Assembly: GCF_017565305.1 (NCBI RefSeq)
Contig: NZ_JAGEKP010000007.1
Coordinates: 124,001 to 188,000, forward strand
From: Leifsonia sp. TF02-11
GTDB taxonomy: Bacteria > Actinomycetota > Actinomycetes > Actinomycetales > Microbacteriaceae
Reading direction: 5' to 3'
Length of the DNA: 64,000 nucleotides
The notes under the pieces are model-generated. The model saw nothing but the letters and a program-made list of their open reading frames with translations. It had not been told where the DNA came from and searched no databases. Positions 59,296-63,928 of the stretch are shown piece by piece (position 1 is the first letter of the stretch; each line of letters begins with the position of its first letter). The position numbers were made by a program, and so were the translations under genes.

Positions 59296-59399
59296 GGCAC
59301 CGAGCCTAACAGCCTGAGACCAGTTGGGTCAGTTTGGTCGATCAGCCCTCTTTGTCCCGTCCACTTGCGAAGCGGGCCTCGCAGTGATCCGATGTCCCC

Positions 59400-59768
59400 A
59401 TGCCTGACGAACCCATCGAGCTCTTCGAACCCACCGAGCTCTACCGGCGCTGGCTGGCCGCGTGGAGCGATCGGCACGCCGCCCTCGAGCCGATCGTCGC
59501 CGCCGACGCCGTCGGGCACTGGCCGGAGGGCGACGTCGTCGGCCCGCGCGGATTCGCGCGGGCGATCGCCGAGACCGTCGACCAGTTCGACAGGGTCGAG
59601 TTCGATGTGCAGGCGGGGCCGCTCGTCGGCGAGGGGATCGTCGCGGCGCGCTGGGTGGTGAACTGCCGGATGGGCGATGAGACGATGTCCTTCGCGGGGC
59701 ACGACTTCGTGCGCGTCGCCGACGGGAAGATCGTCGAGTACTGGCCGGCCATCCTTCCCACGGCCTGA
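59400..59768 (+). CDS. SnoaL-like/NTF2-fold protein
   Basis: A 122-residue single-domain protein of the NTF2-like SnoaL group. Seen: LYRRWLAAWSDRHAALEPIV at the start, DAVGHWPEGDVVGPRGFARA, VAARWVVNCRMGDETMSFAG and the family end HDFVRVADGKIVEYW. Such proteins act as small cyclases, isomerases or binding proteins; nothing nearby reveals the substrate. ATG 59400. Lies between the toxin-antitoxin pair and ftsH and looks like an insertion into a conserved gene order. Confidence 0.75.
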   Translation: MPDEPIELFEPTELYRRWLAAWSDRHAALEPIVAADAVGHWPEGDVVGPRGFARAIAETVDQFDRVEFDVQAGPLVGEGIVAARWVVNCRMGDETMSFAGHDFVRVADGKIVEYWPAILPTA

Positions 59769-59841
59769 CCGGCACGGCGGCGCCATCGTGCGGTAAGCGC
59801 GCCCAGAGCGAACACGCAGCCGACCCACAGCGGTCAGGCGG

Positions 59842-59847
59842 TACTGT
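59842..59847 (+). promoter_or_regulatory. Candidate -10 box upstream of ftsH
   Basis: TACTGT fits TANNNT and ends 9 bases before the ftsH ATG at 59857, with no Shine-Dalgarno between them, so the 5' leader would be only a few bases. Inference from spacing. Confidence 0.3.
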
Positions 59848-59856
59848 GGTCGCACC

Positions 59857-61860
<2,004 letters not shown>

Positions 61861-61872
61861 GCCGCGCGCCGC

Positions 61873-62448
61873 ATGACCGGTTTCGATCGCGCACGCATCG
61901 AGGCGGCCGTCGCCGAGATCCTCGCCGCCATCGGCGAGGATCCGTCGCGTCCGGGGCTGGGCGAGACGCCGTCCCGCGTCGCCGACGCCTACGAGGAGTT
62001 CTTCGCGGGTGTCGGCGTCGACGCGCGTTCGGAGCTGGGCGACCCGGTGCCGTTGGAGGGCGCGACCGCCGAGACGGTGATCCTGCGCGACATCCGCTTC
62101 CGCTCGGTCTGCGAGCACCACCTGCTGCCGTTCCTCGGCGTCGCGCACGTCGCCTACCTCCCCGGTGAGAGCGTGATCGGCCTCGGCCGCATCCCGCGCG
62201 CGATCGAGACCCTGTCGGCGCGCCCGCAGCTTCAGGAGCGGCTCACCGAGCAGATCGCCGACACCATCGAGAGCGGGGCAGGCGCGCGCGGCGTCCTCGT
62301 CGTCCTCGACGCCGCGCACGAGTGCGTGACGACGCGCGGCGCGCGCCAGACCGCTGCGACGACGGTCACGATCGCGGCGCGCGGCGCCTTCACGGAGCCG
62401 GCGGCCCGCGCCGAGCTGATCGCCCTCATCGGCCGGGGCATCGCGTGA
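61873..62448 (+). CDS. folE: GTP cyclohydrolase I
   Basis: A 191-residue zinc enzyme, first step of folate synthesis (GTP to dihydroneopterin triphosphate). Seen: IGEDPSRPGLGETPSRVADA, RDIRFRSVCEHHLLPFLGVA with zinc ligands C and HH (about residues 80-83), GLGRIPRAIETLSARPQLQE and AHECVTTRGARQT (third zinc ligand Cys). Complete. ATG 61873, 12 bases after ftsH. Its stop overlaps a downstream GTG (GTGA), see the repeat entry. Confidence 0.96.
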   Translation: MTGFDRARIEAAVAEILAAIGEDPSRPGLGETPSRVADAYEEFFAGVGVDARSELGDPVPLEGATAETVILRDIRFRSVCEHHLLPFLGVAHVAYLPGESVIGLGRIPRAIETLSARPQLQERLTEQIADTIESGAGARGVLVVLDAAHECVTTRGARQTAATTVTIAARGAFTEPAARAELIALIGRGIA

Positions 62449-63128
62449 CCCCGCTGCCGCGCCAGCTCCCCGCGACGCCCGCCGCCCGCCGGCGCCGCCC
62501 CGCGCCCGCGCCCGCGAGATTCGTGACGAATCACGACATTCGTGCCACGAATGCCGCGATTCGTCACGAATGTCGCGCGCTGCCGCGTCGGGTGGGTCGT
62601 CGATTTGCGGCAAGTGCCGCGATGGGCGGCGCGTATCGCAACACTTGCGGCAAATGTGCGACCTCCTCTCGCCGGGGAGCGGTGGCGAGTTTCGTCACGA
62701 ATGTCGACATTCGTGGCACGAATGCCGCGACTCGTCACGAATCTCGCGCGCTCTCGCGTCGGGTGGGGCGCCGATTTGCGGCACATGCCGCGATTGGCGC
62801 CGCCCATCGCCACATTTGCGGCAAATGTGCGACCTCCTCCCGTCGGGGAGCGATGGCGAGTTTCGTGACGAATGTCGACATTCGTGCCACGAATCGTGGG
62901 ATTCGTCACGAATCTCTCGCGTTCGCGCGTTGGGTGGGGCGCCAATTCTCGGTGAATGCCGCGATGGGCGGCGCGTATCGCAACGTTTGCGGCCACTGTG
63001 CGACCTCCTCCCGCCGGCGAGTGGGCTGGACATTCGTGACGAATGTCGACATTCGTGCCACGAATATCGAGATTCGTGACGAATGTGCCGACGCAGCGCG
63101 CGAGTTCATGAGGCGGGCCGGCGCGTGA
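62445..63128 (+). CDS. Hypothetical 57-residue-repeat protein between folE and folP
   Basis: A 227-residue open frame whose GTG overlaps the folE stop and whose stop overlaps the folP start, both as GTGA. It has a Pro/Arg/Ala-rich start, then three repeats of exactly 57 residues and a partial fourth, each with FVTNVDIRATN-like and CGKCATSSRRG-like stretches (CGKC, CGKC, CGHC). No known domain. The coupling at both ends argues for translation; however, long frames are also open on the other strand because the DNA is built of palindromes, and the amino-acid pattern may simply mirror the DNA repeat. I treat coding status as undecided. Confidence 0.4.
   Translation: MTPLPRQLPATPAARRRRPAPAPARFVTNHDIRATNAAIRHECRALPRRVGRRFAASAAMGGAYRNTCGKCATSSRRGAVASFVTNVDIRGTNAATRHESRALSRRVGRRFAAHAAIGAAHRHICGKCATSSRRGAMASFVTNVDIRATNRGIRHESLAFARWVGRQFSVNAAMGGAYRNVCGHCATSSRRRVGWTFVTNVDIRATNIEIRDECADAAREFMRRAGA
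62519..63090. repeat. 171-base tandem repeats with phased palindromes, folE-folP gap
   Basis: Units begin at 62519, 62690, 62861 and 63032, an exact 171-base period; the fourth is cut after about 60 bases. Each unit opens with three dyads: ATTCGTGACGAAT (centre 62525 in unit 1), ATTCGTGCCACGAAT (62545) and ATTCGTCACGAAT (62565), always 20 bases centre to centre (unit 4: 63038, 63058, 63078). The rest of each full unit has TTGCGGCAA-type dyads and a conserved TGTGCGACCTCCTC block. Between units the sequences differ by roughly one base in six to ten. Nothing like it appears elsewhere in the window. Confidence 0.95.
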
Positions 63129-63928
63129 CGCTCATCATGGGCGTCCTCAACGTGACGCCCGACTCCTTCAGCGACGGAGGCCGGTGGCTCGAGCCGGACG
63201 CCGCCGTCGCGCACGCCCTCGAGCTCGTCGCCCAGGGCGCCGACCTGGTCGACGTCGGTGGCGAGTCCACGCGACCGGGCGCCGTCCGCGTCGACCCCGC
63301 GGAGGAGCGGGCGCGCGTCGTGCCCGTCATCCGCACGCTCGCCGGGCTCGGCGTCACCGTCAGCGTCGACACGCTCAACGCCTCCACCGCCCGGGCCGCC
63401 GCCGACGCCGGTGCCGCGATCATCAACGACGTTTCGGGAGGGCTCGGCGATCCCGCGATGCCCGACGCCGTCCTCCACACCGGCCTGCAGTACGTCGTCA
63501 TGCACTGGCGCGGCCGGCTCGACGCGGCGGACTCCCGGGCGGTCTACACCGACACCGTGGCGGAGGTGCGGTCGGAGCTGTCCGCCCGCGTCACCGACCT
63601 CCTCGACCGCGGGATCGACCCGGCCAAGCTCGTGCTCGATCCCGGGCTCGGGTTCTCCAAGAACGCCTCCCACAACTGGCAGGTGCTGGCCGGCCTGCGC
63701 GAGTTCGAGACCCTCGGCTACCCGGTGCTCATCGGCGCCTCGCGCAAGCGGTTCCTCGGTGCGCTGCTGCCGGAGGACGCCGCCGTGGAGGACCGCGACG
63801 CGCCGACGGCGGTCATCTCAGCCCTCGCCGCCCAGGCGGGCGTGTGGGCCGTGCGTGTGCACGACGTCGCGTCGACGCGGATCGCCCTGGATGTCGTGCG
63901 GGCGTGGCAAGCTGGACGCGATGACTGA
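63125..63928 (+). CDS. folP: Dihydropteroate synthase
   Basis: A 267-residue TIM-barrel enzyme joining 4-aminobenzoate to the pterin diphosphate, the target of sulfonamides. Seen: MGVLNVTPDSFSDGGRW (pterin site, about residues 5-21), VGGESTRPGAVRVDPAEE, SVDTLNASTARAAADAGA, INDVSGGL, DPGLGFSKN and the phosphate loop GASRKRFLG near 212. GTG 63125 overlaps the stop of the repeat frame (GTGA) and has no strong ribosome site of its own. Its stop overlaps folB by 8 bases. Confidence 0.95.
   Translation: MTLIMGVLNVTPDSFSDGGRWLEPDAAVAHALELVAQGADLVDVGGESTRPGAVRVDPAEERARVVPVIRTLAGLGVTVSVDTLNASTARAAADAGAAIINDVSGGLGDPAMPDAVLHTGLQYVVMHWRGRLDAADSRAVYTDTVAEVRSELSARVTDLLDRGIDPAKLVLDPGLGFSKNASHNWQVLAGLREFETLGYPVLIGASRKRFLGALLPEDAAVEDRDAPTAVISALAAQAGVWAVRVHDVASTRIALDVVRAWQAGRDD

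Follow-up and report, generated by a model that had tools for sequence, protein, structure and literature searches.

REP-like palindromes are often attributed to RAYT transposases, and bidirectional intrinsic terminators are hairpins that lie between convergent genes, near both stop codons. The dRS3 repeats of Neisseria are short dyads that start with ATT and end with AAT; we know of no three-dyad unit among them. In the main text of PMC3733652, REPs of the GTAG and CGTC types lie close to gene 3' ends, both where genes converge and where they run in one direction. As described there, the CGTC type has no dedicated transposase, is present in high copy, lies less than 20 bp from the 3' ends of convergent genes and is often paired, and it carries a CGTC tag, a stem of 8-9 closed by a loop of 4-5, and a tail of 3 bases. 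The same text names Neisseria dRS3 as CGTC-1 and discusses dimers in terms of the removal of long hairpins by SbcCD and of protection from clearance; Leifsonia, Clavibacter and Actinobacteria go unmentioned in it. Likewise, the main text of a paper on IS elements of Leifsonia xyli (PMC2516522) contains no words starting with palindrom or MITE.

The locus considered here is a palindromic array in Leifsonia sp. TF02-11, a member of a genus of soil bacteria. The window, by which is meant the whole stretch of 64,000 nucleotides that was analysed, ends in an ftsH-folE-folP region (Pfam: FtsH domains, PF01227, PF00809), and the array sits between the folE stop (62448) and the folP start (63125). We give about an even chance to the reading that this array represents one site of a superfamily of extragenic palindromes, dispersed through Leifsonia genomes and acting as bidirectional terminators or 3'-stabilising hairpins. 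The features of the region are as follows.

61873..62448, plus strand: folE, GTP cyclohydrolase I (PF01227)
62514..63084, no strand: tandem array, period 171, 3.3 copies (Tandem Repeats Finder, 84% matches)
62519..62571, no strand: element A copy 1 (13-6-15-6-13; half-sites all intact)
62603..62655, no strand: element B copy 1 (outer dyads ATTTGC-G-GCAAGT / ACTTGC-G-GCAAAT, middle ATGGGCGGCGCGTAT)
62690..62742, no strand: element A copy 2 (one-base change in two half-sites)
62774..62826, no strand: element B copy 2
62861..62913, no strand: element A copy 3 (one-base change in one half-site)
62945..62997, no strand: element B copy 3 (decayed)
63032..63084, no strand: element A copy 4 (half-sites all intact; final partial unit)
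63125..63928, plus strand: folP, pterin-binding enzyme / dihydropteroate synthase (PF00809)

An earlier note on this DNA placed the starts of four units at 62519, 62690, 62861 and 63032, all of them correctly, the fourth unit consisting of only the first 53-58 bases. Its phrase "exact 171-base repeats" holds for the period, which is exactly 171, but not for the sequence, the full units being pairwise 87.1, 80.7 and 80.1% identical. The three dyads per unit that it described, with centres 20 bases apart, are found in all four units as dyads of 13, 15 and 13 bases. They make up element A, whose layout is ATTCGT-S-ACGAAT, six bases, ATTCGT-GSC-ACGAAT, six bases, ATTCGT-S-ACGAAT, 53 bases in total. 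Further dyads (TTGCGGCAA) reported from each full unit are indeed there; they belong, as its outer dyads, to a second element, which is decayed and has the same 20-base geometry (62603, 62774 and 62945). This element B begins 84 bases after the start of A and repeats its layout in other, partly decayed letters, with outer dyads ATTTGC-G-GCAAAT and a middle dyad close to ATACGC-GSC-GCGTAT. As for the proposal that 11-12 sites face the same side of the helix, the sites are phased within a unit but not across units, 171 bp corresponding to roughly 16.3 turns of 10.5 bp each.

Triple dyads at a step of 20 (at least 5 of 6 arm pairs in each dyad) occur at five places in the 64-kb window, all within the array; among 16 other steps from 14 to 30, only 18 and 30 gave a match, once each and outside the array. 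Differences between units spare the A half-sites, which receive 2 of 22, 1 of 33 and 1 of 34 of them while making up 36 of the 171 positions. Long spurious open frames cross the array on both strands (62322-63128, plus strand, 268 aa; 59329-62613, minus strand, 1094 aa, beginning in the array), and an annotation would probably list them as hypothetical proteins. A repeated protein-coding sequence, one of the options raised in the earlier note, could point to the 268-aa frame that spans the array. Several frames, however, are open through parts of the array on both strands, the differences between units are spread evenly across codon positions, and the Pfam match of the 268-aa frame is sub-threshold (20.6 bits against a cut-off of 28), all of which makes a coding function very improbable.

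The array is far from alone in its genome. Its unit has 217 BLAST matches in the host, and a two-dyad pattern matches there 181 times in forward and 173 times in reverse orientation, the reversed control not at all. A sample of 40 host regions, drawn from the 150 listed of the 217 BLAST matches and the first 100 pattern matches listed, holds together with the window 43 clusters of at least four half-sites each, smaller clusters being excluded, and 107 A elements at no more than 3 mismatches, 62 of them perfect. Half-sites in A elements stand at offsets 0, 7, 19, 28, 40 and 47, and longer host lattices extend with a 40-base period. Though no spacing of 40 was required, neighbouring outer dyads no more than 130 bases apart are separated by exactly 40 in 91 of 160 host pairs, the next commonest spacing accounting for 6. 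The same spacing is found in 32 of 52 pairs at loci taken one per species, and in 24 of 25 pairs in 205 kb (204,606 bases) of the genome G014, where the pairs belong to five chains of 2 to 9 dyads and are therefore not independent sites. In three of the G014 loci (L238, L241 and L244) the outer dyads form chains of 4 to 9, in which almost every step is 40 bases.

Arrays also stand at contig ends, at the starts of host contigs C1, C12, C24 and C27 (L009, L025, L033 and L040). They probably break the assembly, and real copy numbers may be higher. At another contig end (L017, 3128-3368) a DDE transposase fragment (PF13586/PF01609) lies about 50 bases from a single element. Among 81 proteins flanking the host arrays, two of them listed twice, the sole related ones are three response regulators.

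The breadth of the superfamily was followed with a generic pattern, ATTYGNNNCRAAT-N27-ATTYGNNNCRAAT, whose letters are taken from Leifsonia, so that the same geometry in other letters would be missed. It matches 23 of 28 Leifsonia genomes with 3 to 331 copies (the highest count in G014; reversed control 0) and is absent from five: G004, G007, G011, G017 and G022. Outside the genus it was found in 0 of 388 genomes from 84 other genera of the family, against 9 of 10 Leifsonia in the same family draw. The search of the unit against Microbacteriaceae that the earlier note had proposed thus finds it, in generic form, dispersed in Leifsonia and nowhere among those other-genus genomes. Narrower patterns agree: the two-dyad pattern is found in 9 of 99 relatives (the host and 8 other Leifsonia, all among the 28), and a stricter two-dyad form in 4 of 398 family genomes, every one a Leifsonia. 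Exact A elements occur in 40 stretches of GTDB r220 contigs, near-host records possibly being omitted. The stretches come from three named sources within the genus: L. shinshuensis DP-L11, Leifsonia sp. Leaf336 and an uncultured Leifsonia MAG.

What is shared among these genomes is a build of outer, middle and outer dyads (O-M-O) over 53 bases with centres 20 apart; the layout is fixed and the letters vary by species. Geometry A (13-6-15-6-13) is found in the host, G008, G024 and G026, and geometry A' (13-7-13-7-13) in G001, G005, G009, G013 and G020; the two agree in their 53-base length and 20-base centres. A de novo scan for three-dyad elements in two 200-kb samples, one from G023 and one from G027, returned the folE-folP element of G023, the rest being at chance level with no excess at step 20. 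These samples hold 0 and 1 clusters of the generic pattern, respectively, against whole-genome counts of 81 and 55. A further long inverted repeat, CAAGCAATCGAGCCGGGACTTATGCAC, was seen at L168 (G007) and L206 (G004), in two species that have no generic O-M-O match.

Between folE and folP the usual arrangement is much simpler. In 22 of 28 Leifsonia genomes the folE stop and the folP motif are 5 bases apart, with no array; arrays or single elements are found in G000, G026, G024, G019 and G023, and G008 has 46 bases and no element. A structured RNA controlling the fol genes, as the earlier note envisaged, would not be specific to them, since most host copies lie elsewhere and 22 of the 28 genomes have the 5-base gap. 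In a midpoint-rooted tree of FolP and an HTH protein, read without support values, G000, G026, G024, G019, G023, G008 and G027 group together, and only the G024-G008-G026-G000 branch has the 13-15-13 form. A single gain followed by losses in G008 and G027 would fit; independent gains are also conceivable.

Element families replace one another at two orthologous gene-end sites, which were classified by eye with gene names from Pfam. Behind the malate/lactate dehydrogenase gene, 25 genomes yielded A in 4, A' in 2, other ATTCG types in 2, B-like elements in 4, other long hairpins in 8 and none or not readable in 5; the script missed the stop of the left gene in 6 genomes, two of which could still be read. 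Behind the HTH gene, the 28 genomes divide into A in 4, A' in 1, ATTCGT outer dyads with another middle in 2, C-like in 2, B-like in 1, other long hairpins in 7 and none seen in 11. Several host sites have an orthologous place that also holds elements in other species, the loci compared being weighted towards those with elements. A copies of the host at L015 correspond to one B element in G026. A long hairpin of CAGCTCCTGAGTT type was observed at both convergent orthologous sites of G012, G013 and G020 (L169, L177, L179, L192, L202 and L203).

There is a clear preference in the position of the elements relative to genes, which were called with a home-made program whose codon usage was trained on the window. 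The 43 host clusters comprise 22 in convergent gaps, 15 in co-directional gaps and 1 in a divergent gap, with 5 lacking a called left gene. By the generic pattern, 34 of 39 host loci could be classified (4 lie at edges and 1 inside a called gene) as 20 convergent, 13 co-directional and 1 divergent. Among the named loci, which were found with the exact A pattern, the figures are 28, 12 and 1 (41 of 43 classified), and among the one-per-species loci 12, 6 and 3 (21 of 25). The host, named and one-per-species sets may overlap slightly, G026 being also a named source and the one-per-species genomes including some already counted. In G014, 3 of 5 clusters are convergent and 2 co-directional; the lone cluster in 200 kb of G027 falls within a called gene, and G023 has none. 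Background convergent pairs amount to 13-18% of gene pairs (7 of 52 in the window, 33 of 177 in G023, 31 of 166 in G027 and 31 of 171 in G014) and divergent pairs to 13-19%. The median distance from an element to the nearest 3' end is 17 bases in the host, 15.5 at the named loci, 17 in the one-per-species set and 19 in G014. At two loci, L022 (2813-2866) and L134, one element occupies a gap that appears divergent, and its position is conserved between the host and G026.

Convergent gaps tend to hold a hairpin even where no element is present. In element-free convergent gaps of 25-250 bases (window, G023, G027 and G014; n=44) the median best 50-base MFE is -31.1, compared with -23.2 in co-directional gaps (n=136), -21.2 in divergent gaps (n=75) and -24.3 in coding stretches (n=96). 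At 43 convergent element sites from the host and named loci the element itself folds to -29.9, against a median of -14.1 in the flanks (quartiles -26.5 and -5.9); for reference, random pieces of about flank size give -12.2 and random 57-mers -21.7. A flank hairpin of -26.5 or lower is retained at a quarter of the 43 sites. As a rule the element forms the strongest hairpin of a convergent site, and the contrast with the weak flanks argues that it usually occupies the hairpin's place.

These observations bear on whether the elements are purely selfish, that is, MITE- or REP-like repeats gathered behind genes where insertion harms least and useless to the host. A generic copy number that ranges from 0 to 331 among species of one genus, and tandem expansion within sites, are both in keeping with such an origin, as is the scarcity of divergent gaps in two of the sets (1 of 34 and 1 of 41), which purifying selection would give; the one-per-species set, though, has 3 of 21 divergent, which is not under background. 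Three further findings are harder to reconcile with useless repeats: a Y1 transposase was found in 0 of 28 genomes, the element stands where a hairpin otherwise stands, and elements persist at orthologous sites across species. Taken as the whole explanation, selfish spread is quite unlikely.

Pairing within the element differs among families. In family A, linker bases pair less than expected, at 2.47 pairs observed vs 3.22 expected in 107 host elements and 2.68 vs 3.17 in 68 named elements, and when arms are exchanged between elements the fold is no weaker in 56 of 60 rounds for 41 host elements and in 60 of 60 for 38 named ones. The centre bases are unpaired, as are the linkers. When one A element per cluster is taken, the deficit is clear only at positions 18/34 (11 vs 20.0 of 42; 14 vs 20.5 of 41); since the anti-palindromy comes mostly from clustered copies, the claim is one of no selection for pairing rather than of selection against it. 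The imperfect pairing of family A would be in keeping with removal of long hairpins by SbcCD and protection from clearance, as discussed in the main text of PMC3733652. Elements of the B-like (14) and C-like types (36, with a few A variants among them) beat their swapped halves, 0 of 60 and 1 of 60 swap rounds being equally stable, a result inflated by the mixing of subfamilies. In 50 elements of G021 the mirror identity of half-linkers is 5.96 of 9, vs 5.31 +- 0.21 in shuffles, with a mild pairing excess at several positions; triplets 19-21 and 31-33 are 93-99% A/T and mutually complementary in 14 of 50 elements, vs 8.6 +- 2.5 expected. The RNA folding suggested in the earlier note gives a strong element hairpin at convergent sites (-29.9) and unpaired linkers in family A. 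A hairpin therefore suits families B and C better than A, and a duplex-binding protein suits the constant 20-base centres better.

Such a protein would bind as a dimer on each dyad, with neighbours touching across centres two helical turns apart, and the resulting lattice on duplex DNA could serve as a roadblock, a loop anchor or a nucleoid-protein site behind genes. We consider this possible but unlikely, and keep it as a candidate because family A does not preserve whole-hairpin pairing. Centre spacing is held at 20 although dyad and linker lengths differ between A and A', both of 53 bases; outer dyads stand 40 apart in 91 of 160, 32 of 52 and 24 of 25 pairs in the host, the one-per-species loci and G014, respectively; half-sites are conserved and unpaired linkers drift; and the G021 triplets are 93-99% A/T yet complementary in only 14 of 50. 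The retention of hairpin pairing in the B-like and C-like families, with the mild excess in G021, sits poorly with a purely duplex reading, as does the different half-site spacing of 13- and 15-base middle dyads. No partner protein was found in a search confined to PF01797. The regulator or nucleoid-protein array of the earlier note may likewise apply.

An intrinsic bend, produced by A/T triplets about every ten bases, was also considered and rejected. By a wedge model using the Bolshoy table, for which a phased A-tract control gives 107 degrees, predicted curvature is 8.8 degrees in family A vs 19.0 in shuffles (115 elements) and 24.7 vs 20.0 in the other families (57 elements). Static curvature below that of shuffles in family A, and near it in the others, also counts against the protein lattice. 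Avoidance of TpA in the middle triplets is weak, 42 of 64 being without it. It is rather doubtful that a fast-evolving Leifsonia protein reads the geometry as a phased trimer of dimers behind genes and stops polymerase, giving a protein-dependent, bidirectional gene-end lattice with species-specific letters. On that reading the conserved trait would be the geometry, three dyads with 20-base centres and A/T triplets about every ten bases, kept within each family as the letters vary by species.

Under the preferred reading, that of bidirectional terminators or 3'-stabilising hairpins, transcription entering from either side would allow the palindrome to fold into a hairpin of about -30 kcal/mol. 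This could serve as a bidirectional 3'-end structure at which transcription is ended, the mRNA 3' end is shielded, or both, as proposed for REPs. The copy between folE and folP, a pair tightly coupled in 22 of 28 species, may then act as an intra-operon attenuator or stabiliser, and copies would have spread and been homogenised within each species by a route other than RAYT. Several points tell against this reading. Family A, the window's own, lacks whole-element pairing; 15 of 38 classified host clusters are co-directional; a strong terminator within the ancestral folE-folP operon would be costly; no palindrome was visible, or the site could not be read, in 5 of 25 and 11 of 28 genomes at the two orthologous places; and a hairpin has no evident need for the strict 20/40-base spacing. 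Terminators of the U-tract kind (a GC-rich hairpin followed by a T run) number 0 at 62300-63300 of the window, vs 0.7 in shuffles.

Searches of existing collections returned no close counterpart. Rfam gave 10 matches at E<=1, all under the gathering threshold (best 55.3 bits vs 268), and the 171-base unit, searched in distant mode, had no match in either phage or plasmid collections. Six dyad 13-mers sought in the open-licence PMC literature matched only two papers, which appear unrelated by title and abstract. The earlier note's remark that no element of this layout had been described is consistent with that literature, in which none was found.

Compared with bidirectional intrinsic terminators, the Leifsonia elements likewise offer a hairpin between convergent genes, near both stop codons, but they differ in having no U-tract (in the window array), repeated lineage-specific letters, a strict 20-base dyad step and tandem arrays. 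Neisseria dRS3 differs from them in its inner letters. Like CGTC REPs, they are high-copy intergenic palindromes with no dedicated transposase, close to convergent 3' ends and often paired; unlike them, they have outer-dyad arms of 5-6 bases around 1-3 bases and a fixed three-dyad, 53-base layout. The CGTC tag is absent beside the outer dyad, where T at position -2 is found in 2% of A-type elements and 0% of the others. With GTAG REPs and BIMEs they share a dispersed, palindromic and clustered arrangement behind genes; no GTAG tag is conserved in the 15 bases beside the outer dyad, the commonest bases from -4 to -1 being C G A S (195 A-type and 57 other elements). Membership among RAYT-driven REPs is rejected, as the Y1/RAYT transposase domain (PF01797) was found in 0 of 28 Leifsonia genomes, with a control search positive in 5 of 14.

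In the broad sense of the term, the elements behave as REPs do, being extragenic, high in copy number and placed behind genes. Of the possibilities listed in the earlier note, a REP/MITE family is the best supported, by genus-wide dispersion and 3'-end placement, even though the marks of the described REP types that were looked for are missing. Leifsonia, with as many as 331 strictly built copies in a genome and no RAYT found, offers a testable case of short-repeat spread without a REP transposase. The exchange of families at shared gene ends makes it testable whether a genome uses repeated palindromes as signals of gene ends, and a 20-base step that stays constant while the letters change calls for a reader protein. 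The Leifsonia elements share the behaviour of REPs rather than their tag, stem size or transposase: they are REP-like, yet match neither described REP type.
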